The position numbers and the translations under genes were made by a program. A DNA stretch of 64,000 bases from Owenia fusiformis (lineage: Eukaryota; Annelida; Polychaeta; Sabellida; Oweniidae). Each line of letters starts with the position of its first letter. Positions within the stretch are counted from its first letter, which is position 1. Below, one piece after another: positions 10,298 to 60,400 of this stretch. The stretch spans positions 14,033,915 to 14,097,914 of the forward strand of contig CAIIXF020000001.1 in NCBI GenBank assembly GCA_903813345.2, given 5' to 3'. Below the pieces are notes generated by a model. That model did not search any database. It was not told the origin of the DNA and saw only the letters and a program-made list of their open reading frames with translations.

Positions 10298-10930
10298 ATG
10301 GCATCAAACCGGGAAAAGTACTACATAACAAATACATTACTTTGTCTTCTCAAAGCATGTGAAAACAAAAAAACAATTGTTGAATTAAGAAATGAAAACA
10401 TTGTGGAGGGACTAATTAATTATGTGGATGGATTTATGAATGTAACCATGTCTGATGTGAAGTTCACATCATTCAGGGGTGACGTGAGTATGTTTGAATC
10501 ATTCTTTGTGGCTGGGAAGAACATACGATTTGTTCAAATACCTGATGAAATTGACATGATGGCAGCTATCAAGGCTCACGCAGCCAGAGCAGCTAGTGCA
10601 GCAAATGTAGGTCTTCAAGAGACCAAACGCAATCCCAAATCTTTGAATATTTGGCAACAAAAATCAGAAGCATCTAAATTAGCTCAAATGAAACAGATGG
10701 TTCATGGGTCTGAAGCTCAAATGAAAATGGTTCAAGAAGCTCAATTGAAAATGGACTCCAAAGCTGAGGCACATGACAGAATGGTTAACGAAGCTGAAGC
10801 CCAAATGAAGAAACTTCATAGAACTGAGGCTATTAGAACGGATAGACCAATTGAGCCAGATTCAAGTAAAGACAAATCAAGTGAAGTAGAGGTTGATCCT
10901 TGTGTAATACAAGATCCTGACAATATATAA
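10298..10930 (+). CDS. LSM10: U7 snRNA-associated Sm-like protein LSm10
   Basis: LSm10 and LSm11 replace SmD1 and SmD2 in the U7 snRNP, which cleaves replication-dependent histone pre-mRNAs. The first 85 residues match the family: VELRNENIVEGLINYVDGFM (Sm1, D-G-F-M-N) and FFVAGKNIRFVQIPDEID (Sm2). A single coding exon follows a probable 5' UTR acceptor at 10257-10259. The product is 210 residues, against about 123 in human. The extra tail, residues 93-210, is repetitive (SEAQMKM, EAQLKM, EAHDRM, EAEAQMKK) and ends acidic. AATAAA lies at about 11085, some 155 bp after the stop. Identity is strong; function of the tail is unknown. Confidence 0.9.
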   Translation: MASNREKYYITNTLLCLLKACENKKTIVELRNENIVEGLINYVDGFMNVTMSDVKFTSFRGDVSMFESFFVAGKNIRFVQIPDEIDMMAAIKAHAARAASAANVGLQETKRNPKSLNIWQQKSEASKLAQMKQMVHGSEAQMKMVQEAQLKMDSKAEAHDRMVNEAEAQMKKLHRTEAIRTDRPIEPDSSKDKSSEVEVDPCVIQDPDNI

Positions 10931-18800: not shown

Positions 18801-21800
18801 TTTTCATACTAAGAATCATCTCAAATTGATCTACCAAACGGTTCACCTGGAAATGCGTAGACAAGACTTTACAGACAAGATTTTACGACGGAAAATCCAA
18901 AATGGCTGCCTTGACATTTACCCAGAATGCCCAAAAACTAATCAGATCTAGATTTTCATACGAAGAATCATCCCTGAAAATTTGAAATTGATCTACCAAA
19001 CGGTTCACCTGAAAATGCGTAGACAAGACTTTACAGACAAGATTTTAGGATGGAAAATCCAAAATGGCTGCCTTGACATTTACCCAGAATGCCCAAAAAC
19101 TAATCAGATCCAGATTTTCATACTAAAAATCATCCCTGAAAATTTGAAATTGATATACCAAACGGTTCACCTGAAAACACGTAGACAAGACTTTACAGAC
19201 AAGATTTTAGGATGGAAAAATCCAAAATGGCCGACAATAAAAAAGTGATTATGGATTTTTGCTGATTTCTCTTTACAAAATTATCACATATAACTACTGT
19301 TAACAATAAAATAGGCTTTTACAACAAAGTACACCTGAAATTATTTACAAAGCTACTAAATAGTTTAAGTATGAAAACTCAAAAACACCATTCAATATGA
19401 TGGGTATTATCGTGCGCTGACTTTTCTTAAAACATTCAAAATGGCAGACATGACTGAGCTAACAGGTCCAAAACCTAATCAGATCTAGAATGAAGTGAGC
19501 TGAACAAGATGTTAAAGTTTTAAAAGCAACTGTGAAGCCGTTTTTCTTAAAGTTTGCAGACAAGGATTTTAGCATTTGACTTCAAAATGGCCGACAGGAA
19601 GTAGGTATCGAGTTAATTTTTTTTCATCCACATCTTTATGCACTCATAAGTTATCCCTGAAAATTTGAAGGTGATATCTGTAACGGTTTTGGAGAAAAGT
19701 GCCGGACGTACGGACGGACAGACAGACGGACAGACAGACGGACAGACAGACGGACAGACGCGCCTAGGCCGACAATATGGCCCCACACTATGTGGTGGGG
19801 ACATAAAAAGTCTGAGGGAGCCATGTCTGGTGAGAAAATAAGAATGGACAAGAATGCTTTGAATGTAACAAAATATGGTGGTATTTCCAAAGTTCAAAAC
19901 CATTAAGAAAAAAAAACATCATAATATTTCCTTTCTTTTTTGACTGCTCCGGGTACCCTCGACATGGGTTGCTATGGTTACCATAGAATGCAGAATGTTA
20001 AATGTTATGGGATAAAATTTATTTTGTGTATGTATAATTATTAGATCAACATTCTGTGAGAAAATGAGCCATATTCATTAATGTTTACAAAAAAAATTAG
20101 AGCACTTTTGATCTTACTTATGATCACCCTGTACATTTCATGAGTGAAGACTGTAAACTGACCTGCTATTTCACATTGCACGTCTCCCAATAAAAGATCC
20201 AGTTCTGCAATTACAACAAAATAAAGTTAAACGTTGACTACAAAAATGGATGCTTTATAAACATACTATGTATCTACAAAATTTATTATTATATAAATGC
20301 ATCATTATACACTGTATATTTTACATTTTCCCACTTTTCTTAATGGATTATTTTGCATGACATACTACTGTATATATACTACCAAACTGCTAACGAAATT
20401 AAAGTGAGTCAATGCATAATTTTAGTGTTCTTTTGAAAAATAAAATAAAATGTCAAACGAAAGATGGCGATGATATCCAGATTATGTCATTTATTCATTT
20501 TTGGTCTATGTGTCATCATAGTACTAATCTCTGAGCTTCAACAGTCTTCAAAGTGAATTATTAGAGTAATTAAAGTGTATTTTCTTCTCTGCTTAATATT
20601 TGCAATAGAATAGAATACAATAGAAGCTTTAATATTCAATTGTTTGTGTGAGTGACATGTAATCAACAATTTTTTGTTCCTTTTTCTTCTTAAAGTATGC
20701 AATGAGTTTCTTTAGTGGTAAATAACATTGTCAAATAATTACATAATCAGATAATACAGTAAGGTTTAAAAAGCAGGTACCAACCATACCTCAACACACC
20801 GAGAGCATTCTAGGCTTGATTGTTTAACCGATAATACTGTAACAACCCGAGAGCACCCCAGGGGAATAACCAACTAACGAGCATAGTGTAACAAGCCAGA
20901 TAAAGAAATTGAAAGAAAGTGTGCTAAATTCAATGCCCCGTGTGGGAATCGAACCTACGACCTTTAGATCCAAAGATTGATGCTCCACAGACTGGGCTAT
21001 AAAGGCTTAAGCCGCAACAGCTGGACTGTAGTACATTGTAGCAACTTGCTATCAAGGGTCGTTACAATACTATCGAGTTTGCTCATACATGTAGACGCAT
21101 GCCTAGGCTATGATACTTCTGAGCAAAATCACAAGGTCTAGTTAGTACCTATTATGTAAACTAATTGTGTTTTAAACATATTATGATTTGAAACAAATAA
21201 CATTGATGAACCAACATAACATTCTTTTTATACAATGTAATCTACTACACCTTTAGTACTTTCACTTTTATAATGCACCATATTGCTGGACATAAACTAC
21301 AATCAATGATTGAAACTATAGTAATGATTAGTGAACAAAATGAAACACATTTATGTATCAGGCATTAGTGAGCTTTACATAAATGCTGACTTCATTCAGA
21401 TAAACACTGTCATTAATACTTCCATATTCACAATGCTAATGCTGTCAACTGATAGGTCAATAGTTACATTGGAGGTATACAATTTACCAAGTCCATTTAG
21501 GAGATACAGGTCAACAATATACAGTCCTCTCTACAGAACTGGATAAACTAGAGACAGACAACGATTTGAATGAGATTCCTATTGGAATAGATATACAATT
21601 GACCCAAATCAGCTAAAAATATGCCATCTATTGCTTCATTGTCCAAAGAAAGCATTTCGAGTCTCCTAAGCTAGACAGGGGAAATGTTTACCTTTGAACA
21701 GACTAATCATAATCAAAGATACACTGATACGCTAGTTTTATATGATGATATAATATCCAGTAAATCAGGATACTACAAGACAGGAGGTAATATTTGGAAC

Positions 21801-27800: not shown

Positions 27801-30800
27801 GTTTGGTGGAAATGATGCATGTTTAGGGAACAGACACTGGATAAATTCTGTGAGAACATTCCCACATGTTTTCACTGTAAGGGTTTCAAGTCAATCTCGA
27901 TCATTGCTATATGTACTATAAAATAAAAATTTTACAGACACTGCATATACCTAGAAATTACTATTGTGACAACAATTTGTCATATTTTTTAGTGGTGACA
28001 AAATAAACTAAAATGTATTCATGAAACAAATGAGATATGAAAATACAGAAGAGCTGTATACCTTATAGAGTGCTTGCCATTGGGCTATGGTTGCTTGTGA
28101 TGATGTCATTCTTGCCAAGATTCTCTGAAATATGAAAAGATTGTATGATGATACGTCTGTAATATTATACAATTTATATTTAACTTGACTTATTCACAAG
28201 AGCAGCAAATCCCAATGAATTATTACATTTTATTCCAATTTTTAATGAAGCTGATATTTGATATCAACAATCTACTTTAAATGATTGTCAACATCTCAAG
28301 ACTTTCACATTCAAACATCCATTTTGGATTTTTACAGGCACCATTAAAATTAATTTAATATCTGCTACTACTCAATACCTGTGATTGAAATACAATGTCT
28401 AATAAACTCATACTTAGAAGATATCTCAAAATTAGAGTGAATTATCTCATTTAGGTTTACATTTGGATTTTCTCCATGAAAACTTTGGCTAAAATAAAGA
28501 AGATCAACTTTTTGTAAAAATTGTGCCCATTGATACTTTTTTCAACATCAATTGCATCCTGCATTTTCTGTTTTGGAAAAATTATAATTTACTGTAAAAC
28601 CTGTTTTAGGAACACCTCTCTCTAGTGAACACAAGTGTCTAGTGAATCCCTCTTCTCAGCAAACACTGAGTTCTGTATAAAATTGGCTCTCTGTGGTGAA
28701 CACCTATCTATAGTGAACACATAATCATTTTTGTGGCTCCATAGGTGTTCAGTTCACTGTACACAGGTTTTTCTGTATGGTCAAAGATTACATTTTGAAA
28801 ATAACAAGGCTTAGTTCTCCAAAACAAGGAAAATGTATAGTGCATGTGCTGGAGCCAATGGTGTAAACTACCAGGCATGGACCCCATAAAATGGATCAAT
28901 GTGGGCGTTAGTTTAGAAACAAATTGTTGACTGATGGAATGAATGATGGACAGAGAGATAAAAGAGCCAATTCCATATGCTCACCACATGAGCCAAAAAG
29001 AGAAAAAAATTCTCACTTACAGGGATGTGTTTGACATGCTTTAGGCAGTCTTCCAGAGTTGATGTCACTTCTATATTTCTAGGGTTAGCAAAGAAAGCAA
29101 CTGCATCTTGCCTTTGTTCCAACTTGGCCATGTCCTTCAATGGCTGCATGAACCATTGCCTGTGATGACAATAGACATTAATTCGATGAGCAACAACTGA
29201 CTCTGAAATATATCATGATATACTGTACTTCTACTTAATTTGGTGCTATTTATTTTGGCAGATTCGCTGCTTTGAATATTTGGCGGCTACTTAATTTAGC
29301 GGACTTGCACTTGAACTTCAAATGATGCAATTTTATCCTTGTTGCTATCTGTTGACTTTCATTTGATTAGTAAATTGCCATTGGTTCTTTTAAAGTACTA
29401 GTAGTTGAGAATGGACATGTTGTTGTTGTTATATATTGTTTTAAATGACAAATTTGAACAAATTTTGAAAGAAAATATTCACTGGAAAATGGGGTAAATT
29501 TCATTTCATATGTGCAGAGTAATTTTCTGAACGAGGCATTAACATGACAAAATGTCACCACCTAGTTCCTCACAATATTATGAGTTCAATCTTAAAAGTC
29601 AGATTTGAATTTCTGAGAACTTGTAGATGATTTTGGAAAAATAAATTGGTCAATTTCAAGCAAGTTGAAAAAATACCTTTTTGACCCTGAGATGGTCATT
29701 GAAGGGGAAATCTCAAATCTAAAGTCAAATTTGAACTTCTGAGAACTTGTAGATGATTTTGAAAAAAAATTGGTCAATTTGAAGCAAGTTGAAAAAAGAC
29801 CTTTTTGACCTTAAAAAGGTCATTGAAGGTCAAATCTAAGGTCAGATTTGAACTTCTGATAACTTGTAGATGATTTTGGTCAATTTGAAGCAAGATGAAA
29901 AAAGACCTTTTTGACCTTGAGAATGCCATTGAAAGTCAAGTCCTTTTTGACCTTGAAAATGTCATTGAAGGTCAAATCTATAGTCAGATTTGAACTGTTG
30001 AGAACTTGTAGATGATTTTGAAAAAATTGGTCTATTTGAAGCAAGTTGAAAAAAGACCTTTTTGACCTCTTTTGACCTTGAGAAGGTCATTGAATGTCAA
30101 ATCTCAAATCTGGTCAATTTGAAGCAAGTTGAAAAAAGACCTTTTAACCTTTTGTGACCTTGAAAAAGTCATTGAAGGTCAAATCTTAAATATAAAGTAA
30201 GATTTGAACTTCTAAAAACATGTAGATGATTTTGAAAAATATTGAAGTCAGTCTAAACAGTATTTGGTAAGTTATTGGAAGTTGTAAGAATTTGTTACAG
30301 ACGCCAATCACCAACCGCCAATCACCAACCGCCAATCACCAACCACCAATTATAACCGCCATCTGCCATAAAAAAAATGGAGACCATAACAATATGTCAC
30401 AACTTTTTGGTGGTGACATAAAAATTGAGATATCTGATTAATGTTTGATTTTAATTGACAACTTAAGATGCAAACTCAAACAGTGCTCTTGTGTGTTTCT
30501 GAAAAGACATTTGCTTTTCTATAATTTCGCATACAACAAAACATAGCTCTGCAGCAATGAAAAGTGACAAATGGGATTTTTTGTTCAAGTAGTATGGTCA
30601 AATGGTGATATATTCATAGATTAAAGAATTACCCAGCTCAAAACCTAAACCAACCCTCTTCCAAGAACACAGCCCCTTAACTTCAAGATATGAAAAATGA
30701 AGGATTGATTATTTGCAAACCTCAACATCTTGGATCCTATGATAGACTTGCATCTGTTCATGATGCGGAACAGGCTAAGGCCTTCCTTTCCACTTGAGGC

Positions 30801-33800: not shown

Positions 33801-36800
33801 GAGTTATTGCCCTGACAGAATGTACAGATGGATGTCATTTGTTGCTGCTGCATCAGTGTCTTCATTTGTTGTCTTATTTCTTCTTTATTGTCTTCTTTTT
33901 TATCTTGATTTGCTTACATTTGATCGTGATGTTAATATCTTTCCTTCAGTGCAGCGGATGGACGGAGCCCTTTCTTATATCCAACTGAACTATGTTCAAT
34001 GGGATAATAAAAAAGGATTCAATTTCAGAAGTGAGAATGAACATGTGTGGAATCTGAACCAAAAATTACGAAGACAACAACTGTTGAAGACAGCTGTTGA
34101 AAAGATATGTGCCAGATATGTATAAGAGAAAATAGATGATAAAATAGATACGACTGAACAAAGTGAGACAAACTGGATCAAGAATCGATTAGATCGATAA
34201 TTAACAAATCACCGACTATCCATGTTCAAACATACATTTACAAAATAATAAAATTCAAAGATATCATCTTTCTCGAGAGAGCAACTTGATGTGGCCATGG
34301 AAAGGATGAATATAAAAAGTCATCGGGACTGACACATTCACTAATATATTATAGAAAAGCCAAAATACAAACAATACCATTAAACCAATATAGGATGGTA
34401 CTTGTATTTAAACATAGCATCAACTGACTCAATAAACAGTTTAATTAACGAAAGATGCTAATATGAATAGCGCCTCAGCAAGCAATTGTGTTAATAGTAC
34501 AATTATTACTTACATGGATATGTGCAATAACACAAACATAACTGGTGACAAGGAAGAGGAGATCAAATGTTTGGGGGTTGCACCCATACACCCTTCAGTC
34601 TTGATTATTTACATAATTGTGAATATTGTTTTCCATTTAACAGCCACATTCTCGAATGGACTATTTCTCCTAGTTATGTGCAAGAAAAAGATGAAATTAT
34701 CACCAACTGGTATATTAGTGATGAATTTGACAATCGCAGACTTATTCAATGGACTAATTCTAGTTCCAATGATGATGTACACTCGATATTTTGTTCCACT
34801 CTATGACCAGTGGGGAATTCTGTATGATAAAGAAGAGACACAAAGAGCTCTCTGCTTTGTGCCTTTACTACTTGGAACAATTACTTATGTTGTATCTTTT
34901 ACCCTTCTTGCAGCCATTTCCCTAGAGAGGTTTGTTGGAATGATGCTTTATAAGTCGCTGGATAAAAAAAGAGCTAAAATCAAAGCAATTTTTGGAGGTA
35001 TAATAATATGGATATATGTGTCTGTACTATTGATAGCATTGTTTCCAAAATCCTTTAAGTATGAACAAAATCTGGGTTGTCATTTAACATTAAGTGTATC
35101 CTCCTCCCTAAGAGATATCTTGAAACCACATTTAGTCATTCCATTGATTCTTTGTATTATTTTCTACACTGCTATATTCTTTACTATCAAAAAGCATAGG
35201 AGGACTGTAAACATTGAAACACATAATAATCCAGTAAACAACATGACTCATATTCATGAGGCAAGATGGGTGATGACCATTTTCCTGGTTATTGTTGTTT
35301 TCTGTGGTACATGGGTTCCATATTATATAGCAACTGCATACATAGATCATGAGGAATGTATGGTTTCTTGGAAAAAGAATGTATTGTACAGTACGTCAAC
35401 TCTTGCCCATATAAGCTCTGTAATAAACCCATGGATTTATACATACAGGCATGCTGTCTATAGGAAACAAGTCAGAAAATATGTACAAAAAATAAGACAG
35501 TTTAAATGTTGCACAACACAAGACTCATAATTATTAAAATATAGCTGCACGCTAGGTTTCTTTACAGTTTTTGATCCTTTACCTTTGGCATTTGTGCTTG
35601 GATATTTGAAGCTTCAAAATATCCTAGCTTTGTATTGTTAAATGATATATACACACACTGTGCTCAATGGCTATGTGGCTGATTAATTTAGAAGCACTTG
35701 TTGGTTGCATAAAAACAAATGATCGAATGTTTGTATTATATTTGGACCAGATTCTCTTACCAGTACTATAAGGGGTCTTTGTAATTGATGTATTATGCTG
35801 ATGTCATCAAATATCACCCAACGAATACATGGGTTTATAGTCAGACGTCATAATAAGAACAAGAAGTCTTCTGATTACGATAATCAGATTCTAATAGTAA
35901 GGTCATTCAAATTTGGCTGACAAGTCGCAGAAAGGTTGTGCACATTTTTTTGGCTAACATTATGCATGGGCTTTTAATAAGAAAGCCCATGCATAATGTT
36001 AAAACAAAAGTTATGCCTCATTTTATAGCTATCCTTGTGTTGTGTAAATAAGCTACACTATACTCAAAGTTCTCCTACATTTTTAATAAAAACAATGTTA
36101 TCTAGACCTAGCATTCTTTTAATTCAACCAACATTCCCATTGCAGCAGTTATCCAGAACGGTGGAGCAATGATTAAGTACATCACCTATTTATTATGTCT
36201 GGTCTGTTGATACCATGTAACATCTGCAAAACTAAGACTGAGTGATCTTTATGGTACCCACAAAAACTTTAGACCATCCTCTAAAACATATGAGAATATT
36301 ACCCCATAAATTCAAGTAATTAATGAGATATAGCTTGTTGCAAGGGTTCAATTTTTGAACAACCTGTATTACAGTTTTTCTTTATTAACCATGCTTAGCT
36401 GTCTAAGATAGCATGGCTATTCTGTATTCTGATTGGAGGGAGAGTAATAACACTGTAACATGTCAAGCCATGTGGAATACATTATTTTTTGTTGTTTGCT
36501 CAAGTTGTTTTAAAGATGTTCAACTGTATCATCAAAATAAATCTGTGGTACAAATGTATGTTTAGTGAAGAAATAAATATATCATAATATCAAAAAAGTT
36601 GTATAAGATAGCTGTCTAAGATAGCATGGCTATTTTGTATTCTGATTGGAGGGAGAGTAATAACTAATAACACTGTCAAATGTCAAGCTATGTGGAATAC
36701 ATTATTTTTTGTTATCAAAAAGTGATATTTGTGGTAATATTAGAGTTATAAAGTGTATATGCTTCTTAAATTCAGATATGATATGACCATATATTTATTC

Positions 36801-39800
36801 TGAGAGCTTTAATTGATCTTCATAAAGCCAATAATACACAATTATATGCATGCTTTATTGATTTCCATAAAGCATTTGACTCTATTTGGCATCAAGCATT
36901 AATCTTTAAGCTATTAAAAGCAGGAATTCGAGGCAAATTGCTAAAGATCTTAGAAAACATGTATACAAAAAGTCAGTTTTGTATGAAAGATAACAAACTA
37001 AATAAAATCACTGATTTCAGACAAGCAACAATAGGCCTCCGGCAAGGGGACCCAATTTCTCCCTTGGCCTTCAATATTTTCATTAATGATTTACCCTCTT
37101 ATATTGGTTTAGATATTAGAGAATTTTCATTATAAGTTGTTTCAAAAACTTATACGTATACTTATAGTTTAAAGGGTCTTGTCGAACTAAAATCAATTCA
37201 AATTGATTTTCATAATTCGTACCAAGTGGGGCATAACTATTCCCGATATAGTCAAGCTCCATCATCAACTAGGGACTGCGAATACAATGTCCTTTGCTAG
37301 TGTCAATTATGAACACGATAAACTAAACGCTAGTTGACGGGTCCTTGTAGTGTACGATAAACAAGACCCTTTAAAGTGAATCACTACACGAACGAGTCGA
37401 TCATTTCAAAGTTCTCATGAAATTATAAGGTCAATTTTTAAGTTTTTACGTATAAAAGGGCCTTTATACACAGATTATAAACTTACAGAGTTGGATCTCC
37501 GCATAGTATATGTGTGGACCTACTGACCAGAATGGCTTATTAAAATTAATCGGCTGAATAGGCATAGTATCCAATCAAACAGCTCGACTCATTCATTAGC
37601 TGAACTAATTCTCCCTTCGTTATTTCTACAAGGTGATTCAAAACGATCATCTACAAAAAATATATTTGAGAGTAGATAAATCTGTAAAACCTGTGTGCTA
37701 TATCAGCCTATTTGATTCTAGAAAACACATATGACACAACTAAACATGCTTTACATCAAGGGGGTACGGATGGTACGCCATTGGCCCTTTTTATTACCGT
37801 CCTAGGAGATATTTCCCGACGAATTATGAAATTATGAAACACCTTGTTTATTGGGTTTATAAGTATAAGTATACATATAAGTTTTTAAAAAACTTATAAC
37901 AAAAATTCTCTAATGACTGTCCAACTTTAGGTAATGAAAAATTAAATATGCTTATGTATGTTGATGATATCGTATTAGTTCAACCTTTTATTTCATTAAC
38001 AAGATACTTTTTTAAAATCAACCAAACTTTCCTTTGTACAATTACAATATTGAGAGACCTAAACACGTTGTGTTTAGGTCGTTTTGTTCCAATGAGGTCC
38101 GGATAGATGTTTCATTTCATTCCAAACATATGATACCAAGAACAAAAAAAAGTGTCTCATGTGTTATCTAAAATAATATAGAGAAAAGTATATAAATATA
38201 TTTCAAATTATAATGTTACCATCCAAAAGATGACCATTAAATTAACGATGTGAAAATATTTCAGAATGTTTTGATGACTGGTTTAAGAGAAACACGTGTT
38301 CAAAAAGTTCACCATATCGATACCACTCTTTTGAAGATTTGCATGTCAATTAAGTGTTCACTGGACCAACATTGTCAATTTTTCAGCTCTCCAATTCTCA
38401 TCCATTATTTCCCTCCATTCACTTTGTATACTGTAGGTGGAAACATGAACTCATAGAGTAGACATCATGCATATTAATAATTAGAGTAATCTTATATCAA
38501 TCTATTGGTAAAAATTACAATGTCAAATAATTTCCTCTCACCGACCACATCAGAAGCTTAACTAGGAATTAGCAAAATTTTGTTGATATACAATACAAAG
38601 TTACTGCTACAGTTAAGATTTCAATAAAGTAATAAAGAAGGATTTTAGTTCTACAAGTGCATATAAACATGAATGAGATGTGAGAAAAATAAAAAGGACA
38701 AGAACAATTGAAGTCTCGGCTGTCATCTGGAGAAGATATATAAAACAATCACGTTCAAAGATTCCACCTCTAGAGAGAAATTAGGTGTAGCCATTGACAG
38801 AATAAAAGCCACGAAAGACTGACACTACTGATATATTATGGAAAAGCATGAAAACAAACAATAGCACAAACACAAATATAGAATGATACTTGTATTAAAC
38901 AGTTCAACAACTGACTGAATAAACAGTTTATGAAAAACACAGATATGAAAGGCGCACCAACTGATGTAATATGGAATACAAGCATTTGTGTTAACAGTAC
39001 AATTACCAATATGAATTTGTGCAATAACACAAACATAACTGGTGACAAGGAAGACGAGATCAAATGTTTGGGGGTTGCACCCATACACCCTTCAGTTTTG
39101 ATTATTTACATAATTGTGAATATTGTTCTCCATATAACAACCACATTCTCAAATGGACTATTTCTCCTAGTTATGTGCAAGAAAAAGATGAAATTATCAC
39201 CCACTGGTATATTAGTGATGAATTTGACAATTGCAGACTTATTCACTGGATTAATTCCACTTCCAATAATGATGTACATTCGATATTTTGTTCCACTCTA
39301 TGACCAGTGGGGCATTCTACATGACAAAGAAGAGACACAAAGAGCTCTCTGTTTTGTGTCCTTACTACTTGGAATAATTACATATGTTGTATCTTTCTGT
39401 CTTCTTGCAGCCATATCCCTAGAGAGGTTTGTTGGAATGATGCTTTATAAGTCGCTGGATAAAAAAAGAGCTAAAATCAAAGCAATTTTTGGAGGTATAA
39501 TAATATGGATATATGTGTCTGTACTATTGATAGCATTGTTTCCAAAATCCTTTAAGTATCAACAAAATCTGGGTTGTCATTTAAGCTTAAGTCTATCCCC
39601 CTCCCTAAGAGAAATCTTGAAGTCACATTTAGTCATTCCACTAATTCTCTGTGTTATTTTCTACACTGCTATATTCTTTACTATCAAAAAGCATAGGAGG
39701 ACTGTAAACATTGAAACACATAATAATCCAGTAAACAACATGACTCATATTCATGAGGCAAGATGGGTGATGACCATTTTCCTGGTTATTGTTGTTTTCT

Positions 39801-42800
39801 GTGGTACATGGCTTCCATATTATATAGCTACCACATACATAGATGATGAGGAATGTATGGTTTCTTGGAAAAAGAATGTATTGTACAGTACGTCAACCCT
39901 TGCCCATATAAGCTCTGTAATAAACCCATGGATTTATACATACAGGCATGCTGTCTATAGGAAACAGCTCAGAAAATATGTACGTAACATAAGGCAGATC
40001 AAATGTTTCACAACACAAGACTCATAATTGAAATATAGCTGCACTCCACAGACCAATCAAATTGCATATTTTGACATCTGTTTTTCTACGCACATAAAAA
40101 TTAAAAAGGATCTCTGATGAAGAGAGAGGCATGACTGAGCAATGTGAAATATGAGTAATCACATAACAAGAATTCTGAAAATTGCTTTGAAAGCTTCAAA
40201 AATACCTGCTAGTGCTATGTTATCATAATAATAATATAAACCCACATGTGTTAAAGTTGAATCAAACAAAAAAGAGTCAGCTTCACTAATGTCAGGCAAG
40301 GACAAATGAGGTGGATACCTGCTCTCATGTTTCTCATCTAAAGTTTTATAATGAGAAAAATAATATCTACTTATTAAAAACACCTGATCTCATTTTCAGA
40401 TAATTCATAACTATTTTCTCTGAAAACAATCAACGGGGATTGTTAATTTTCTTTTGTAAAGTAGTAACAGCCATATATGAAAGCAAAGGGTAAAGCATGA
40501 GAAAACATCATGATAATAAAGAAGGAGTGAAGAGAAGGGAGCATAAAGACTAATAATGATTCAGAATTGTTGTGTAATAAAAATTATGAAAATCATCAAA
40601 ATATCTTAATTTTAGTTATTCATTAAAGAGAGAATCAGATATAGCGAGCATCCAAGCAAAAAATTGTGTCAATTTTAGAATATTTCTGGCTTGTGTCATT
40701 CCTTTTCATGTCTATTTTCTAAATATTCACAAAGTACACACTTTATTTCAGGAAAACTCAAGATTTTTACAATAATGTATTATTTTTCTATAAGAATGGT
40801 TACCATTCTTATTATTTGGGAGAATTTAACATTGTTCACCCATTTTTGCTCTTTTTGCTCTTTTAATCCTTCATAACTTCACCAATATATAATATATGGA
40901 AGATCTTTTGGGAGATTTTGTATTTGAGATTGTAAGGAATAGATTGGTAGGTCAATTGTACATGTTGCTTGTCACCCCCATAGATCTGATTCTAACAGCA
41001 CTCATGGCATTAAGACTAAACAGTTTGTCTTCTCTTTAGACACAAATATTTCTCTCTTCTTGATTTCATTATTATTTGCCATTTGTCAGGACTTTAATAT
41101 TATTTCATAAATTCATATTTGATTTTAAAATGATTTTAAAATGTTTTTGCTATGAATATGATCGTTTTTAACTTTTCACAATCTTCCCTATAGGCCTAAT
41201 AATTTTCATATAATCTTACTCAAAATGCCTTTCAGAATCTTGCTCTAGCTGCCACAATGTATATCTAAAGATGACAAACAGGCAGAGCTCTATGTCTGTC
41301 TGTAAGATTTTACTCACCTGTATGATGCATCATCCACAATCATCAGACACTCACTGAAACAACAAATAAAATCTTTTAAATTGACCCTTTCCATATAAAT
41401 GGAAAAATAGATGGTATCATGGGTACTGGTAGGGCTAAATAACATGGCAACTTAATAGCAAGAGTCACTTAATTTCTTGATTTAACTCCATTTAATTCCA
41501 TTTGGATCAACTTAAAACACCATTGACACGCGTGATTGATATGATATTATTGAAATGTGGATTGTGATTTCACATTAAAATTGTGATCCTTATAAGAGTA
41601 AATGAACTTTTAAAGGTTTTTCAACATTGTGTCAATGGGGATTTAGCCCAACCATTTTTAGAAAACTTGAATTTGAATGAAGGTAAATAACAGTGCAAAT
41701 CAAAGTTTTTTTGATAGAAAATTACACACAGAATTCAAATATGTCATCAAATGGAAGAAATTGTTAGTCTTCAGTGGTTAAAATTGCAGATCTCCTAAAA
41801 TCTTATTAAAACGAGACTTTAACATGATTTCAAAGCTATATGAAAAAGCCTCTATTGAAAATGTGTGCTCAATTTTAATTGAATTGAATCCATCTATGTT
41901 GGCAAATATGATTCATTTAGGAGCACAACTATGTGATAATGGAGATCCTTTGGGGAGATTTTTTCAGATTACCCAGCTTAATTATTAATTGAGAGACTTC
42001 AACTTCACATCTTTACATCTTAGTTCTAACTTATCAGTCATTGCGAATGTTATAAGATGGAAATACTGATTATGATATGTACTTATGTTATACTCCAATA
42101 ACTGTAAGAAACAATATTGAAATGTGGTTTGGCTTAGGGCATGTAGGGACATTTCAGATTTCCCCTAAACGTTTGATGAACTTTCAAAGAAAGCCATTTT
42201 AAGAAAATCTGTGAATGTTTACAAAATATCAAGACTTTTTCCCCCTTCCCAAATGTAATTTATTATATTTCAGGGCATAAAATGATACACATGTGATGTA
42301 TTTGTCCCTTACTCACAGGGAGAATGTCCTCATGGCCAAGATAGGGACTCTAGTCTCTGTTGACTCAAGTTCTATCCCCACACGCTTCTTGTCAAGGAAC
42401 TTCAGCAGACCGCCTACAGCTCGCACCTTAACACAATAACTGTACTGTTATATGTGTATTTTCTGCATTTTTGTTCACAGGTTCACATACAATCAACATG
42501 TAAGATACCCAGTTACCATGCAGATCAATATTGTTAAAGGGCACAAGGGGAAAAACTGTACATTACCATGCAGATGTTGTCAAAGGGCACAAGGAAAATA
42601 ATGTGCACTTACCAAGTTACCATGTAGATGTTGTCAAGGGGCACAAGGAAAAACATGGACACTTACCATGCAGATGTTGTCAAAGGGCACAAGGAAAAAC
42701 ATGTACACTAATGCCATGCATATGTTGTCAAAGGGCACAAGGAAAAGTATGTACACTTACAAAGGTATCATGAAGATGTTGTCAAAGGCCACAAGGAAAA

Positions 42801-45800
42801 ACATGTACACTTACCATGCAGATGTTGTCAAAGGGCACAAGGAAAATAATGCACACTTACCAAGTTACCATGTAGATGTTGTCAAGGGGCACAAGGAAAA
42901 ACATGGACACTTACCATGCAGATGTTGTCAAAGGGCACAAGGAAAAGTATGTACACTTACAAAGTTACCATGTAAATGTTGTCAAGGGGCACAAGGAAAA
43001 ACATGGACACTTACCATGCAGATGATGTCAAAGGGCACAAGGAAAATAATGTGCACTTACCAAGTTACCATGTAGATGTTGTCAGAGGGCACAAGGAAAA
43101 ACATGTACACTTACCATGCAGATGTTGTCAAAGGGCACAAGGGAAGACATGTGAAGGGTTCGCTCACTCTCTGTGAAGTGGTTTGGAATACTAGGTAAGT
43201 TCATGGATAAAATTCTCCGTTTGCTAACTTCTAATGCTGAAAATAAAATACATGTCTCTTTTATGCCTTAGTCACATTTGCTCTACAGCTACAGATACAA
43301 CAGTCGCAGTTTCAAAAATTGCTGAAATACTTGTGATAACATGTATCCTTACGTTTTACAGCTTGGCAATGGCCAGAATAAAATCTGAGGTCATATATTT
43401 GCCATAAATCAAAGAATCAAGGTCTTTGTTACAATTCTAATATGAAATTTTTTTTAATTAGGTGGTCATATATTCTCCAATATAGACCAATAAATCAATT
43501 GTTCTGACATCTTCTGACATCACATATCATATTACTTAATTACTAATATATCTTAAATGTTAACAACCATGACATCTATGAAAAGAAAGTTGGAATGAAT
43601 TGACAATGAAAGAGATATAAAATCAAAGAATAAGAAAACTTACAAAAATCTAATGTTGGAAGAAGCTGCACAAAATCATCAATTTCTGGCCCTTTTCCAC
43701 CTTGAAAATGTAATATTAGATATTATATTGAATATACATGAGAGCATTAAATCACCAACATTTTCTTGAGTCAAGCGCTTAAATTCGTTTCACACATAGG
43801 AAAAAAGATTTTGTGAAATATCACTCATTTAGAATGAGGGGGGTTCACTCTAAATAATAATGCAGATGCGAGTAGGTAGTTACCAGTTTCGCCACTAGGT
43901 GGCTCGTTCGGGTCAGATAACATGGCGGGTATAGTAGAAAGTTCCCTTTAACTTAAATTACATCTGTTTTAGTGGTTCAATTTTTATATAACCCTTATGT
44001 ATCTAATAGTTATGCAAATTAAAATATGTCCAGTAAAGAAAATGTAATCTGTCCAATACAAGAAAAGATATTTCACTTTTTGTGATTTTGTAACAAAATT
44101 AAATTTTCAAAGTTGATAAACAATTTTCGAAACCATTTTTCTAAATGTACTTTTACATGTAGATTTCAAATATGACATTACTTTGACTGAATTTGAATAT
44201 TTAATGACATAAATCAAGATTATTTCTATTCGCATCTAGTCTATTTGGGTAGGTATGTGCAGCACAGGCAATTTTGGCTTAGGGCATAAACCATGGAACC
44301 TGGCCAATCTGAGAGGAAACAAACATGGAGAATTTGTCGAAGAGAGAGAGCCTTTTTAAGTCAAAAATCAGTTTTTCTCCAATAAATCGGTAAAATCAGT
44401 TGACGAGGTCAGGGACAAATCACCCAAAAAGTGCAGCTTGCAGCGAGAAGACGGACCGGTTCGGGGCAATCTGCTTGCAACGAGAAGACGGACCGGTTCG
44501 GGGCAATAGCTGATGAAATTCTTTGTCACAAAGTTTGGCATTTTTTATAAAATCAAACGCGCGTCATTGAAACTCACAAGATGTAAATAGCATGTCATTT
44601 ACATCATACCTTGATGGGGAAAAATAGATCTTATATGTTTGAAGTACTAAATAAAAGTTATCGTGAAAATGAGACAGTCGTTCTCGAGAGAAAAGAGCAT
44701 AAATGCGCATTTAGAGAGTTTTGGTCCGTTTAAAAATCTGTAAAAAATTGGGGTACTTAAAAGCATCAGGAGGCATCATATATTTCAAATTAGACACGAG
44801 GAAGTCAATATTGAGCAAGTTATGGCTATTTTAAATTCAAATAAAACCGTTAACCCGTACCGGTCCAGCTTTTGACCCGTACCGGTCAATTTTCGTTAGC
44901 TGCGTATACCAAGGGTGTAAAGGGGGTTTTTGGCGTGGCACATAGGTATTAAGAGGTATTACAGTGAAACCCCCAATATACCTCGGATGATATTGATAGT
45001 TTGAAATACTGACAACATCCTTGTGATATTCCCCATATCAAATCCTTCCAGGTAAATAACTACTTCAAATCGACACATTCAAGGCAATGGGGTATTAAAT
45101 AGTCATACATTAAATTCGATGTCATATGTGATTTGAACATGGAAACTAATCATCAGAAATGCCTTGAAGTTACAATTACAGCCATTCTATTTGAAATAGG
45201 ATACATGTTACAATCATTTTAATAAAAGAAAAAATCGGTCATTTGTAAAATCAAAGGCCTACTAGCATTTGAGACTTGATAATGCTGCCATATGTAGGTA
45301 AAATCTAGATTTCCATTTCATTTTAATGGGATTGCAGGGAAAAACTGATATTGCATTATAAAGCAAATGAAATTCTTAAGTGACTAGATAATCAGATCAG
45401 ATTGCCCATACCTAATGACTTTAGCTTAGCTAGGAGTCCCTCATCTTGTTTAGCAGTTGTAACAATACACATTGGTTTCACTTGCTCAAACACTGTCAAA
45501 TACAAAGAAAATGTACACAATATCAATCTAAATTGAAGAATTAGTATGTCAATGCAAGATCGTATTTATATTTTTGAAGTAATATTATTGAAGAGATTAT
45601 ACAACTTACCTTTGGAAATGATGTGGAAGTCCATTGTTTCAACAGTGTCCATCATCATGTAGAAGCATGTTGTATCAATATCATAGTAGGCTATTCCTAC
45701 CTTGCCTCCCTGCCATACAACACTCATGTATGTCTGTAAAAAATATTACTATTGTGAAATCAATCATGTCTTAATGGACTGAAAATGGTCGATGTTTGAA

Positions 45801-50711: not shown

Positions 50712-52122
50712 TCAGCATTACATTATTTTCTTCCGATCAATTTAGCATATGATATGTTGTAGTCCTGCTTCAATACCCTTACCTGGATTATCTACTCTAA
50801 TGACTGTTAGTCCAATAGCACTCCAGGATCTTGAAGCAAATATGATATAGGGCACCTTCCAATCATTTTCATTGATATTGGGCATCTGCATGAATGGCTT
50901 TGTAACACACTAGGCCTTTAGCTATAGCCGACGCATCGAAATTGTCGAAATTCTATTCTAAACTAGCGACTATGTGACTCAGTCAGAAATATGAACGTCG
51001 AAATTATTCCTCCAAAATATGAAAGCATGGTCATACTTATAAAAAAAAGAACACGGTAACCTTTACGTGATAAGATTGTACACAACTGAATCAAATATGG
51101 ATGATTTAAAATTAAAATCGATAAAAGTTGTACAAATAATTTAATCATCATTGATAGAGGAATATTTCTCAAAGAATGTTAAAAAGAGACGAGGTAAGTG
51201 CCTTACACTGGCGACGCTACACAGTGATTTGAGGAATCCTCCGTCTGTTTCTCTGACTTACTTTCCATTCGTCTGTCGAAGTTGTTGCCTCATGGGGAGG
51301 GGGGCAAAGGGTCTTTGTTCAAGAAGGAATTTGCAATTTACCCGCTCAGTTCGAAATGACCGCAAGTACTGATTTGAGGACTAATTCCATATTTCATGTA
51401 CTAAATATCTAAGGAATATAGCGACGAAAAATAGGCCATCGTACTTGTTGGTTGAAATCTTACTGTCAAATGACTGACATTAATGGACACGACAAAAACT
51501 AGAATATGGTCGTAAATTTATGCTCGGGGTTCTGTAGGGGCTCTACATCTGAAATTCACTTTATACCTGCCATAACAGACGCTGTAGTTCGTCGCACTTT
51601 TGGTAGATTGATGATGATAGTTTTACCCCGAGGCCCAGAGTGTAGTATTAATTCAACCATTGGAAAGGGGTTATAAGGATTAATATGAGATACATTGTGT
51701 GAGGAACATTTGACATGAGCTGCTTTAAGCACCGATATTGTTCACCAAAGTTAAGGTTTAAGCTTGCGTCAGATGCGTTTGACGGTTGAAACTGCAAATG
51801 GGGGGATCCCAAACTGTATAGCTCAAACTATCAATCTATATCAATTTCTTTTGTTTTAGCATGTTCTTGGATCCTAACTAATTAAGTCCAACATGGTAAC
51901 CTGATAAATTAATAATTAAAGACTCCTAGTTGTGTTGGTGTAGTTCTACATTGCTAGAGGTCAATCAGTCAATACTCTAGTGTCTAGAACATATGTTCGG
52001 TATCGGCACAAGTGTTTTATATAGAGATAAATAGATAAGGCAATACAACAAGACAATAGATCAAGGAAGAACGCATTAACAGTTAAAGTCTCGTGATTGA
52101 TATCTTATAGAAATATAGAACA
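50712..52122. other. Region upstream of the PTB-domain gene
   Basis: No gene is seen. The last few hundred bases should contain the promoter and 5' UTR of the gene at 52123. No clear TATA box is identifiable. Confidence 0.4.
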
Positions 52123-52911
52123 ATGGATGAACTCAATTCAAAATTTCAACAAAATTCGCTGGATAATAGCAGTACGAATTCAGATGGTACCCATTCTAAT
52201 AAAAGTACCGATGAACTACTGAAGTCGGGACCTTCAACTTCACGGAAACATACACCTCCGACAGGACACAATAGTGATAATCCGGATGACACATCTGAGA
52301 AGAAAAACATTCTAAGCAGACTTTTCAAAAAGGAAAAAATTGAACCAAATGTGAACGATTTATCAGCTAGAGATGATGCTCTAGCTAAGGTAACAATAGA
52401 TACTCTACCACAGGTGTACGTGGCTAAATATCTTGGTTTCCGCTCTTGCAAGGGCCTGTGGGGGGTCCGGCATACCCGAAAACCCGTCGAAGAGCTGGTG
52501 GAATCAGTAGGAAAGATAAAACGTGGTGACGAACTTGCCTTGGTGCACATAGAGATAAGCAAGACTGGTATAAACCTTAAGACACACCCATCAAACAAAA
52601 ATACAAAATTCGAACCAGGATTTATCCCCATTGAATACATTTCTTATGGAGTACAAGATGTGAAATTTTCCAGAGTGTTTGCTTTCATTGTTGTCAGAGA
52701 GATGTCAAAAGACTCAAAGAAAACAGAGTGTCATGGATACGTTTGTGATAGCACGTTAACTGCGCGTAAACTCGCTCTGTCAGTTTCCCTCGCCTTCCAA
52801 CAGTATGCCAAGATCCTAAAAGGAAAACCACATGGCTTCCACGTTGATCTAAGAAAAGCTGCGGAAAAAGAGAAAGACGATGCCAAACAAGATGAGGAGT
52901 GTGATGCATAA
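52123..52911 (+). CDS. PTB/PID-domain adaptor-like protein, intronless
   Basis: 262 residues. Residues 1-95 are Ser/Thr/Asn-rich and disordered, with a basic patch (ILSRLFKKEK). Residues about 97-230 form a PTB/PID fold: QVYVAKYLGFRSCKGLWGV (first strand, YLG motif), HTRKPVEELV, IEISKTGINLK, FIPIEYISYGVQDVKFSRVF (core strands), FAFIVVRE, ECHGYVCDS, and a C-terminal helix ALSVSLAFQQYAKIL. The tail is charged. PTB domains bind NPxY-type peptides in receptor tails, so a cytoplasmic adaptor role is inferred. The subfamily is not assigned. The single exon is complete from ATG to TAA. Confidence 0.85.
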   Translation: MDELNSKFQQNSLDNSSTNSDGTHSNKSTDELLKSGPSTSRKHTPPTGHNSDNPDDTSEKKNILSRLFKKEKIEPNVNDLSARDDALAKVTIDTLPQVYVAKYLGFRSCKGLWGVRHTRKPVEELVESVGKIKRGDELALVHIEISKTGINLKTHPSNKNTKFEPGFIPIEYISYGVQDVKFSRVFAFIVVREMSKDSKKTECHGYVCDSTLTARKLALSVSLAFQQYAKILKGKPHGFHVDLRKAAEKEKDDAKQDEECDA

Positions 52912-55421: not shown

Positions 55422-57437
55422 TTATTTTACGATAGGAATTCCCCTCAAATCTAGCCAGCTGTTGAATAGTTCAACCGGTGCTTTCAGAATGTCTCTTGTT
55501 ACACATCTAAATGCATTCTGCTGGTCAAACGTCAATAAACGTTTGGCCGGTAGGGATGATATCAAAAGGCACATCTTAGCTTTAACATCATTCATGTTAT
55601 TTTTTTCTTGGGTCACGAACCTACCCAATTTAGAAATGAGTGAGTTGATTTCTTTGTCTGTTGTCCCCATTGCTTTCAACTCGCATTCTCTTTTCAGATC
55701 AATAAACCAATCTGGGTAATCACTCGTGGAGTCATTCGTATAAATATCCAATGTATAACTTTTGTCTATGACACGATGCTTGTGCTTTTCGAATAATGGT
55801 TCCAGTTTCTCAAATGCTGAATATTTATGTCTGAAAGTAAGTTCTCGTAAACTTTCAATGCGGAGGAGTTTAGCTTGAGCTACTTCCGCAAGCTGAGTTT
55901 TGGACGCGTCAAAGTCTGCCCTAATTGTCTCTAAAAATATGTCTGGATTGGCACGTTCCAGTTGTTCTCCAGTTTCTTCAGTCGAACTATTGTCGGATTT
56001 TTTCCGATTCATAATCATCTTTTCCTGCTGCTCCACCATAAGCCACACCGGTGGCTTTTTATCCACGACTATAATTGGCTCTGCTGGTTGATCAGTGTCT
56101 TTACTAACTCCGCCAAGTGGTCGTAGCTTTGTCATTGCTCTCAATGCCATACTCGTCTTCCTGAATCTCGATGTGGGCTTCAGGCCCCCGTGATCCCCAG
56201 AAGCAGCCCCGCGACTGTTGTTATCATTAGTCCTTGATGGAATTTTAATTTGGGAATTTAGGAGATCATCCCAGTTTTCTAGCTTTGGCCGCTCATCACG
56301 ATTTTGTTTTGATGCTAATAAACGGGACGTAAATGCTAATTTTTTGTTGGTTGCAATTGTGCTGTGTGCAGGGGCATATGTTTTTGATGCATTAGTTGCT
56401 GCATGTGAGGCTTTATCAGAAGGCAGGTTCCGATGAAAGGATGGCTCATTACGTACTCCTATTGCATTAGGATCATGGGCAGGGTCCTCGATATATTTAA
56501 CAGAATTACTCAGTAACTGTTGAAGCGTTTTTGAAGTCAGTGGAAACCTTGATTTTAGATCCCTTTGCCGAATGTTCATCACTGATGTAAGTATCAGCAA
56601 TATATTTCGCATTTTTACGAGAAGGTATTGTCTCTCCCGTGCCCTGCGTTTATTTGCTTTCATCCTTGCTTTTCCCCTCATTGTAAGAATACCAGTAAAA
56701 CCTCCCATCACATTAGAATCCTTCTTGCCTGTTAGCTCTCTGTATAAGGTTAAACCATCCCGTTCGTCCGTATAAAATACAGGAAACTCACTCGGGGACA
56801 ATGCTCTCATTTGCATTTCCATTTCACTTTCGTCTTGACATTTTGAATCGTGAGAGAAAGCAGAGGGTAGAATGTTGCAAGCATTGGGATCGTAGGTTGC
56901 TCCAGCTTTTACAGATGCGACTCTTTTATTGGATTCACCAATCATGTATTTGATTTGTTTGTAACCTGCGTCGGTACAATCAAGTATCTTGTTCTCTTTT
57001 CCTTGATTCAAATCTGAATCATTGTCAGTATCGTCACTGGATTCAACGGGTTTAACTAATTTATTTGCTCCAAGCTTCAAACATTTTTTCATCAGTCTTG
57101 CTCCGTGATCAATACCGGGTGGCATAAGTGCTTCGAAATTTTTGTCTATTAGCCTATCAGTGTTTAGTTCTGGTTCGCCCAAATGGAGGTACCGTTTGCC
57201 ATTATCACAGAAGAATCCACATTTCAGTTGTTCTTTACGGCGTTTAGCATTCTCGAGCCAATCATTATCAGAGGCAGGACGTTCAACAAGTTCAAAATTT
57301 CTTGTTTTTATTTTCTCGGGAACGTACTTTGGTTGCTTCTTTAAATATTCATACCTGGCTTTGATTCTTTTCAGGACAATGCTTTCTTCTGCCCCTTTAT
57401 GGTCCTTCATTTTTTGAACTAAACTCAGCATTTTCAT
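55422..57437 (-). CDS. Uncharacterised 671-residue protein, single exon
   Basis: Complete frame, MKMLSLVQKMKDHKG to DLRGIPIVK. I do not recognise the family. It is charged and largely soluble, with no signal peptide or membrane segment. Features: a basic helical N-terminus (about 1-75), an acidic SSDDTDNDSD stretch near 133, a strongly basic RMKANKRRARERQ segment near 258, a Ser/Asn/Ala-rich disordered middle, predicted coiled coil about 500-560, and a C-terminus with YPDWFIDLKRECEL. Composition is even and complex, unlike a repeat artefact, and no transposase or RT motif is seen. A coiled-coil or CCDC-type conserved animal protein is possible. Lack of introns is notable beside MSH5 and would fit a retrocopy. 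Confidence 0.75.
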   Translation of the reverse strand: MKMLSLVQKMKDHKGAEESIVLKRIKARYEYLKKQPKYVPEKIKTRNFELVERPASDNDWLENAKRRKEQLKCGFFCDNGKRYLHLGEPELNTDRLIDKNFEALMPPGIDHGARLMKKCLKLGANKLVKPVESSDDTDNDSDLNQGKENKILDCTDAGYKQIKYMIGESNKRVASVKAGATYDPNACNILPSAFSHDSKCQDESEMEMQMRALSPSEFPVFYTDERDGLTLYRELTGKKDSNVMGGFTGILTMRGKARMKANKRRARERQYLLVKMRNILLILTSVMNIRQRDLKSRFPLTSKTLQQLLSNSVKYIEDPAHDPNAIGVRNEPSFHRNLPSDKASHAATNASKTYAPAHSTIATNKKLAFTSRLLASKQNRDERPKLENWDDLLNSQIKIPSRTNDNNSRGAASGDHGGLKPTSRFRKTSMALRAMTKLRPLGGVSKDTDQPAEPIIVVDKKPPVWLMVEQQEKMIMNRKKSDNSSTEETGEQLERANPDIFLETIRADFDASKTQLAEVAQAKLLRIESLRELTFRHKYSAFEKLEPLFEKHKHRVIDKSYTLDIYTNDSTSDYPDWFIDLKRECELKAMGTTDKEINSLISKLGRFVTQEKNNMNDVKAKMCLLISSLPAKRLLTFDQQNAFRCVTRDILKAPVELFNSWLDLRGIPIVK

Positions 57438-60400
57438 TAATTACTATTCAATGTACTTAAGACATGTAAGATAATTCTTAGATTATGTCAAAAGTATTTT
57501 GTGAAAATCATTTTGCTATTTGTTGACGTTGTGAAGTAATATATGTGTTCGTTACCAAGTGAGTTATTGTATGACGTATGTACGGTTCTTGATCATTGAG
57601 TTCTATTTCAGCGATTGTCGATTGGTAATTGTGATGTCACACCTATTTAACCTTTTCAACTGTCACCAAGGAGACATATTTCACGCGATACAACATGAAT
57701 AAAACATTAGACAAAACACGAAAACAGCTATTCCACCGAGAAGCAAATTCTGATGAACAAATTATTCCTCGATTTATTCATCATGTTGAGCATTCAAAGC
57801 TAGAAATAACAAAAACAAATCATTTTCAAATATGACCAAAGCGATCAACTGTCTCTTAAGTTTTAGTCAAATATATCATCTACTGAAATATTCATTCAAA
57901 TCTGTCGGAAAACGTTTTTTATATTCAAACGGAAAACTTCATTTTTAAAAATACTGATGCAATGATACACTCTTAAGACAGGAGAGGGATCCCAAAGAAT
58001 AATCATAAACCACATTAATTCTGATTCTGGACTATGCCTGTTACACTGTAGTTGATAACGTTTTTAGCCAGGCAATTGCAAGAATAGAAGAAATCTCCTC
58101 AGGAAGCAGCCAAATCTAACAATGATTCTTTGCTCAGAATACGTTTCCGAATAATCTTTTTCCTCGCCTCTAGGTTTCCTCTCAATTTCCTGTGAATGTC
58201 CACCACACTTCGAAAAAATGCCCAAAGCATATAAGATATAAAATAGAATTCTAACGGGGGCATAGCTAGCTATAAGATAGACAACCGCCTCGCCAAGATT
58301 TTATTGAAAAACTTTTTGATAATTGTGAAAACAATTGTACCATAGTGATATAATATCCTCTTTGGTTTACGTTTTGCCTCGCCTAATCAAGTTTGCCTCA
58401 CCTGTTTTGAGTTTTGACTATGTCCATTAAGACTATACAATATGCGTTAAATATGCATTAATAATGTGTTTTACCAGTGTTGTGAGATTTTCTGAGCATG
58501 AGGTTCCGTTCATCGAGCGCTTTCTAACAACAGAAAAAACTTCTAAGTAAGGCACAAAAGCTAAATCTGTCCGGGATGCTAGCGACTCCACGGTTACACT
58601 TTACAGATGTAACATGAAAAAGTACAACCAGATCAATGCCCTATAAATCTAACAAATGATAAAACACCGGACTGTGCAATAACGAAATGAACTACCGAAC
58701 TGACTATTGAGTATATTCATTATTATTAGCAAGTAGACTACAAGCACATCATTAGCTATTTATGAGACTTTTCAACAGGAAATGTTATTTGGCGTAAAGT
58801 TTTATTCTGCGATTATTTCCCGCAAAATAAAGGTCGTTGTTTCATTAATTCATAAAGAATGAAATTGCCACACGGTTTATCAACTGACATAGGAGGGTGT
58901 TCATTTTTATAGCTACCTGCTTTCATACCTGTAATTAACCAGAGCTATACAATTAACCAAATGGCAAATAAATTACGTCAGAACAGACGCTGTTGAATAG
59001 AAAACGATTTCTTTAGATTGACTATTCCCAATTTGACGATTAAATATTGAACGTTTTATTCATATAACACCCCCGCTTAAAGAGCAAGTCTACATTTTAA
59101 CCATCGGTATACGATAATCAAGTTCTAATTGACGACATGGTTGAATAGATCATTTAGACCTAGGGTTAAGAAAATACCAGCCTTTTTATGATGGGAATTG
59201 ATGTTTGATGTAAGGATTCATAATATTTTGAATTGGAAATCAAATTTATTGGAAACGTGTACCCACGGGTAGGCTACTGTAAGTCTAACTGGATATTAGC
59301 CTAGCAATAGGGAAGACTGGGGCAAAAAGGGACAAGAGGCAAGAATGAACACTTGACTTCTCTCAAAAGTTTGTAAAAAATGAATATACAGTGCCAGTGC
59401 TTCAGTTTAAGTATATACTGACTGAATGAATATGTCATACCACCTAAAGAACTGGTGCCCCGTCCTGCTCAGTGATGTCCTTATATACTACCCTGGTTAC
59501 CCCAATCGCATTTGCTACAAGAGAATTTAGTCCTGAAAAGCGTTATCACCTTTTCTTCATATTTATCAAAACTATTTTTTAAATATATAACATGGCCTTC
59601 TGTACGTTTTAAAACCGAGAGTGTACTCATTTTTGTTGGGCAGCCTTTATTGTAAAAAGGTAAAAAGTGTTCCGTTCTACAATGGTCTCCCCTACGTTTT
59701 CACGATGAACAAATTACAAAAACAGGTTATTAAACTGGTTTCTAATGATTCACATACCCAATTGTTCTTGATAAGTAATCGATGATATTGATAAGTAACC
59801 TGAATAATAAACATAGACTTGCTTACATATTGAGAGGGTTGATCAGAACATTATTGGAGAATGATCAAATGATAAAACGTTTGGAAACTTGATTGGATCG
59901 TGTCGCATATTCTTAGAAGTACTCTTCTAATACATCAATAAAATTAAACATCGATGTTGCATGACGTATATGTCGTATGTCGAACTTCAATGAAATTGGT
60001 ATGAATAGCAACAGCAACTGCTTTTTATCAAGTGTTTAGTTTTGTTTAAAACAATTTGTAATATTCTCTTTGTTAATTTCAAAGTTTGCTGAAACAAAGT
60101 GCCATGAGTTTTATTAAAATCATTTGAGCGGGGTATGTTTCCCCAAAATGTTCAAAGAGGTTCACGTTCAATGAATTGCCCGTAAGTGAGAAGATATCAA
60201 TAGAACAGCATATTTCTGTCCTATTTTGCCCGGCTACTCCTACACTATTCGCCACAAGAATACTTAATCTTAGAAAAGCGATCAGTCTCCGAGCCTTTCG
60301 TCCAGTGCCATCCGTACCTCCTGTGAAGGTACGCAACGAACGAAATGAATTTTGAGAATGAAAAGCGATATCATATCACAAGTTTAAATGCCGAGTGCGT

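Follow-up and report, generated by a model that had tools for sequence, protein, structure and literature searches.

The 64,000-nucleotide stretch of the annelid Owenia fusiformis analyzed here (contig CAIIXF020000001.1, positions 14,033,915 to 14,097,914; the window) carries, in an intron of the MSH5 gene, a tandem array whose units copy the end of the preceding exon together with its 5' splice site. The explanation that we favor, with a probability of about 0.78, is a recurrent and probably near-neutral minisatellite of an exon boundary, of the kind called mirages in amphioxus, with productive mRNA made through the exon-proximal donor. The MSH5 array is one of many such arrays in this genome.

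The MSH5 assignment is based on a tblastn search with a human MSH5 query, which gave collinear exons between ~45.7 and 12.8 kb, among them the nucleotide-binding (Walker A) exon at 16353-16499, and on MutS matches of this Walker A exon that fell below the cut-off in profile scans. The exon bearing the array and the following exon were found with E values of 7e-7 and 1e-7, respectively. They join in phase 0 with no gap (M/VRAVGG vs T/VRALGG, the slash marking the junction), indicating that the exon-proximal donor makes MSH5, and productive MSH5 mRNA is thus predicted to need this donor. The joined piece of 77 amino acids had no match in Pfam, NCBIfam or PDB. The region, read on the minus strand, contains the following features:

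43115 to 43236, minus strand: the 122-bp MSH5 exon that seeds the array, ending PFDNICM in phase 0, its last 28 bases (perhaps 38) being the seed.
43109 to 43114, minus strand: the authentic exon-proximal donor GTAAGT, whose use gives gap-free MSH5.
42427 to 43114, minus strand: the array-bearing intron, 688 nt.
42516 to 43114, minus strand: 12 post-exon units, mostly alternating between 46 and 54 bp, the last one degraded.
43082 to 43084, minus strand: an in-frame TGA met by any transcript running beyond the authentic donor.
42607 to 43060, minus strand: nine extra GTAAGT hexamers, with first bases at 43060, 43014, 42960, 42914, 42860, 42814, 42760, 42666 and 42612.
42427 to 42440, minus strand: the 3' end of the intron, with the sequence GTTATTGTGTTAAG, which provides the acceptor for productive splicing.
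42313 to 42426, minus strand: the next MSH5 exon (tblastn).

The exon ends in CTTTGACAACATCTGCATG and continues on the donor side with GTAAGTGT. The last 28 exon bases recur in the intron as 11 copies differing by no more than 5 mismatches, 4 of which are identical to the exon, and as a degraded 12th copy near 42516-42548, while neither 200 dinucleotide shuffles of the intron nor the rest of the 64-kb window gave any copy. Tandem Repeats Finder (TRF) places the array at 42562-43153 with periods of 46, 100 and 200. The alternation of 46 and 54 bp has distal exceptions of 48 and 46 bp, and the 54-bp type differs by an insertion of 8 bp, which creates a double donor in most of these units, e.g. 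GGTAACTTGGTAAGTG. GTAAGT occurs ten times in the intron, the authentic donor included, against a shuffle mean of 0.165 and a maximum of 2. A sequence-only reading of this DNA had described tandem units copying the exon end and its donor, and a row of near-identical 5' splice sites, and both descriptions hold. "Near-identical" is the correct word and "identical" would be wrong, since the authentic 9-mer ATG/GTAAGT is shared by only four of the nine extra sites, the other five being TTG/GTAAGT or TTT/GTAAGT. The units thus combine 28 exonic bases with the adjoining donor region, have the length of minisatellite units, and form an intron array that starts at the exon end, as mirages do. Queries with the 122-bp exon and a 100-bp dimer gave no second locus in the 498-Mb genome among the best candidates scored.

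The exon copy carries conserved MSH5 protein sequence, which points to the exon as the source and to the intron copies as derived. Eleven intron units show TTTTCCTTGTG where the exon shows CTTCCCTTGTG, a difference expected if the array was homogenized apart from a selected exon. Moreover, an ACATGT in the exon lies 46 bp ahead of an ACATGT in the intron, so that the first duplication could have taken place between two short direct repeats, in which case the unit may comprise 38 exonic and 8 intronic bases.

To look for similar arrays, the whole genome was searched for three GGTAAGT words spaced 27-57 bp apart. The first 100 matches, which are those listed, all lie on C1 and reach 58.8 Mb; they form 13 clusters, corresponding to MSH5 and 12 others (L001-L012). 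A second donor word, GGTGAGT, gave 8 clusters among the matches listed, on C1 up to 19.4 Mb, one of them being L014. Exons were called by eye upstream of the first donor and their peptides were then scanned against Pfam and PDB. Among these 21 listed clusters, nine, MSH5 included, showed exon homology at E<=0.01, so that the construction recurs at several genes, as mirages do; of the remaining 12, two showed weak homology, five a reading frame and splice signals only, and five no exon. The exons found besides that of MSH5 are as follows:

L002: BLOC1S5/Muted, 6e-15.
L003: DCAF17, 0.01 as displayed.
L006: WDR35, 1e-11 (PDB 8fgw).
L007: CTDNEP1, 8e-12 (PDB 8ujl).
L009: GTF2H2/Ssl1, 4e-26.
L011: UPRTase, 1e-7.
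L043: Rieske/RFESD-like, 3e-8 in Pfam and 1e-8 in PDB.
L048: sugar-transporter type, Sugar_tr, 0.0013.
L004: TSP_1, 0.028, weak.
L001: tetraspanin, 0.058, weak.
L005, L042, L046, L047 and L014: open exon and splice signals, no convincing homology.

L005, L042 and L046 matched no Pfam family, nor did L014, which gave weak coiled-coil PDB rows at 0.027 and 0.087. A DUF4904 match of L047 at 0.017 was treated as chance.

In the homology-supported arrays, the repeat starts at or inside the exon end and extends downstream. The overlap between exon and unit ranges from about none (L003) through 5 bases (L004) and ~6 by eye (L043) up to 50 of 52 (L007). The donor 9-mer of the exon is retained in 4/10 copies at MSH5, 17/18 at L001, 28/31 at L002, 2/2 at L005, 5/5 at L007, 16/17 at L009 and 14/14 at L011. 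The probe found no copy in L003 and L004; it was mis-set for L006, which has no count.

Several of the loci examined have a particular architecture. At L001 (C1:441000-445200), the tetraspanin-like exon is followed by 54-nt donor units that are in frame and stop-free, and a second array of 120 bp upstream repeats the acceptor side of the same exon. At L042 (C1:5411600-5413200), 33-nt units encoding VSPNAHSFDTE and variants follow an exon ending WSPNTHSFDTE, and each downstream donor would add 11 residues. About three copies of the acceptor region, TTTCAGGTGTGCATTCT, lie upstream at L011 (C1:58370200-58373900), with donor copies downstream. At L049 (C1:20246400-20248800), each of the 49-bp units that repeat the exon end SLSNEIDELERAKQEYIKKNEDQ has a donor-like signal, GTAGGC or in one case GTTAGT, together with an acceptor-like TTTTCAG, and a copy therefore resembles a tiny exon; this locus matched no Pfam family and gave only chance-like PDB rows.

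Control words were counted with the same kind of pattern. Over the whole genome, GGTAAGT triples number 1158 vs 1239 for the reversed word TGAATGG, GGTGAGT triples 971 vs 538 for its control word, and triples of the acceptor word TTTTCAG 1640 vs 302, a count left unused as dispersed repeats make up many of the matches listed. Raw pattern counts were therefore rejected as proof of donor enrichment, given that GGTAAGT does not exceed its reversed word, and the count for GGTAAGT does not establish that arrays generally tend to start at donors. The data show that arrays recur at exon ends, not that they prefer them.

The TGAATGG control listed 20 clusters on C1 and one on C2, of which 18 on C1 were kept after exclusion of C1 9432362 and 36898709 (not array-like) and of the C2 cluster. 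For each array edge, a small codon score derived from the MSH5 exons selected one open reading frame (ORF), and all 34 ORFs were scanned in Pfam. Two of the 18 control arrays reached E<=0.01, with HDAC (L023) and ECH_1 (L028); each of these is once more an exon end whose unit includes a donor, and the exon 9-mer is retained in 6/6 and 5/7 copies, respectively. Four other control arrays gave chance-like Pfam matches at 0.059-0.071, which places the L001 tetraspanin match at the Pfam noise level, the assignment of this exon being based on the peptide as read by eye. Applied to 12 donor clusters (L010 excluded), the same mechanical pick recovered the true exon ORF in 6, so that the control has a lower sensitivity than the visual reading used for the donor clusters. 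L014 is common to the control and GGTGAGT lists.

Several observations weigh against the mirage explanation. Besides the lack of excess of GGTAAGT over its reversed word, no exon was recognized at the array start in L008, L010, L012, L044 and L045, and L010 has no TRF array containing the donor word. Five of the 21 clusters are supported by frame and splice signals alone. At L003, the true donor is CAA/GTGAGA, 12 nt upstream of the first GTAAGT, which leaves a near-zero exon overlap. Finally, the analysis covered the DNA of one assembly, and donor use, copy-number variation and neutrality would have to be taken as predictions.

The sequence-only reading had proposed that some transcripts use downstream donors, gain a stop codon and are degraded by nonsense-mediated decay (NMD), the number of copies setting the level of MSH5. 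The predicted in-frame TGA does exist: it lies at +30 nt past the authentic donor, ahead of the first downstream copy at +46 and thus of all nine extra GTAAGT sites, and the alternative MSH5 product would carry a premature stop, as expected for NMD-coupled splicing. However, chance would often produce a stop within ~15 codons of AT-rich intron sequence, and the dosage idea draws on just such a stop. Among the 10 arrays in which a downstream copy was scored, 8 meet a stop before the first one (L006 is included despite a mis-set donor, since the stop there is immediate; L042 is outside this count), and at L028 the stop falls one base after the first downstream copy. The L001 units run stop-free for 996 nt and those of L042 stay in frame across the 14 units read, their lengths (54 and 33 nt) being multiples of 3. 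Such a mix of stops and open frames would fit chance better than a designed switch. In addition, amphioxus mirages, as far as the accessible text of the reports goes, seem not to disturb splicing (PMC3087553, PMC3902484), and a similar architecture is found at WDR35, GTF2H2, CTDNEP1, BLOC1S5 and others, genes of quite different functions. The tuning of MSH5 output by array length is therefore not supported, and we consider it improbable.

Another explanation could be that the extra donors are helpful. Several U1 small nuclear ribonucleoproteins (snRNPs) bound shortly downstream could strengthen exon definition or keep the intron from premature polyadenylation, so that the arrays would be tolerated or mildly favored. 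The retention of the 9-mer in many copies (at MSH5, L001, L002 and L011) is in line with this proposal; homogenization of the array would by itself keep the copies alike, and we judge a helpful role to be unlikely. That the units are raw material for new exons or introns, becoming exons through their acceptor-like signals, agrees with the paired signals of L049, with the repeated 3' splice side upstream of the L001 and L011 exons and with a route proposed for amphioxus globins in the part of PMC3087553 available, but it would be an evolutionary outcome rather than a present function, only one altered MSH5 copy near 42742 (CATTAG) has a well-placed acceptor AG by eye, and it appears very improbable.

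The mirage explanation accounts for the array as follows. A short stretch spanning the last exon bases and the start of the intron would have been duplicated, then amplified and homogenized through slippage or unequal exchange. Since the first copy has to remain coding, the array would grow on the intron side. The exon-proximal donor would give the productive MSH5 mRNA, and the downstream donors would be ignored or would yield stop-containing transcripts that are discarded. While the sequence, the copies, the homology of the exons and the recurrence at other genes are observed, we infer the duplication mechanism, the exclusive use of the exon-proximal donor and the near-neutrality.

A rough extrapolation of 13 clusters in 58.8 Mb and 8 in 19.4 Mb suggests ~300 donor-word clusters genome-wide. 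A wider proposal, which we hold to be doubtful, is that 5' splice sites are a favored birthplace of minisatellites in this spiralian, at perhaps a few hundred genes, the spliceosome picking the exon-proximal copy almost without error. If true, the rule behind the selection of a 5' splice site, be it first come, exon definition or exon-bound factors, would have to prevail over as many as ~30 near-identical competitors that lie nearer the acceptor. Experiments with two competing donors such as DOK7 (PMC5585400, in its accessible part) leave the choice among near-identical donors in a living genome open, and the present arrays are natural rows of 3 to ~30 such donors, the first of which is required for the protein of the gene concerned. 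Should exon-proximal use prove strict, the rule could be read from a series varying in spacing, number and match. Such introns are also a warning for gene predictors.

Elsewhere in the window, two similar single-exon ORFs for rhodopsin-type receptors are found at 34445-35527 and 38915-40024 on the plus strand, the latter matching 7tm_1 at 4.8e-25 (Pfam). Both are on the strand opposite MSH5, between recognized exons of this gene, and thus seemingly within one of its introns. The plus-strand ORFs 10295-10927 and 52111-52908 show an LSM domain (2e-11) and a PTB/PID domain (4e-6), respectively, and a 672-amino-acid ORF at 55425-57440 on the minus strand has no Pfam match better than 0.17. Other large tandem arrays of the window are at 18033-19231, 6017-6725, 7544-8110 and 29595-30191; none of these four touches a recognized MSH5 exon end (TRF, tblastn).

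The closest known system is that of the amphioxus mirages, described in the accessible parts of two reports (PMC3087553, PMC3902484), to which the following comparison is limited. Mirages are minisatellite-like tandem duplications of exon-intron boundaries found in Adh3, globin, troponin C and PGBD5. The Adh3 units have 10-72 bp; those of two globin genes measure ~150-160 bp. Their array length varies between haplotypes and the splice signals of their units could serve as cryptic sites, although Adh3 data and globin reverse transcription PCR (RT-PCR) suggest that regular splicing is undisturbed (PMC3087553); Adh and troponin C mirages are described as generating no aberrant mRNAs (PMC3902484). 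The MSH5-type arrays share with them a unit made of an exon end and a splice signal, the head-to-tail arrangement beside the true boundary, minisatellite unit sizes, the involvement of both donor and acceptor sides, and the presence in several genes of a genome. They differ in the length of the donor row, up to ~30 near-identical donors (L002), in the evidence, RT-PCR and haplotype comparison in amphioxus and the sequence of one assembly here, and in the host, a spiralian and not a cephalochordate.

This placement of the host agrees with one C1 cluster in which, by eye, the best Hox match has WKKDNNIEKLTGPPP following its homeodomain, beside genes with Ubd-A-like peptides. We take WKKDNNIEKLTGPPP to be the lophotrochozoan Lox5 signature (KLTGP). 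Amphioxus itself, which the mirage literature had suggested as the host, was set aside on these Hox features; a GFP-family search gave no match, in this genome or in any of its control genomes, and a COX1 search gave none either. A spiralian Hox signature in the host indicates that the mirage kind is not confined to cephalochordates. Exon-boundary minisatellites are thus not an amphioxus oddity, which bears on the origin of introns and of splice variants.

With regard to the origin of introns, the AGGT model reportedly explains intron gain through tandem genomic duplication. Like there, an exon stretch with a splice signal is copied in tandem; unlike there, where the duplication makes the intron and both new splice sites belong to the copies, the intron here has its acceptor outside the array. 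This acceptor, at 42427, lies ~90 nt past the donor of the last unit and by eye resembles no unit, so that the MSH5 intron is probably older than its array. No spiralian report of such arrays was recognized in a partial literature search made mostly at the level of titles; for the earthworm metallothionein gene, intronic minisatellites are reported, donor repeats being absent from the description as far as it is accessible (PMC12783039). In DOK7, the choice between two donors depends on donor strength, SRSF1 and hnRNP A1, according to the available part of that report (PMC5585400). Lastly, human genes of segmental duplications carry internal tandem repeats at exon-intron boundaries, which in the portion of the report available (PMC2812944) resemble the present arrays as minisatellite variation at such boundaries; there, the copy number differs between recent paralogs and the repeats can create novel introns, whereas here the authentic intron is in place.

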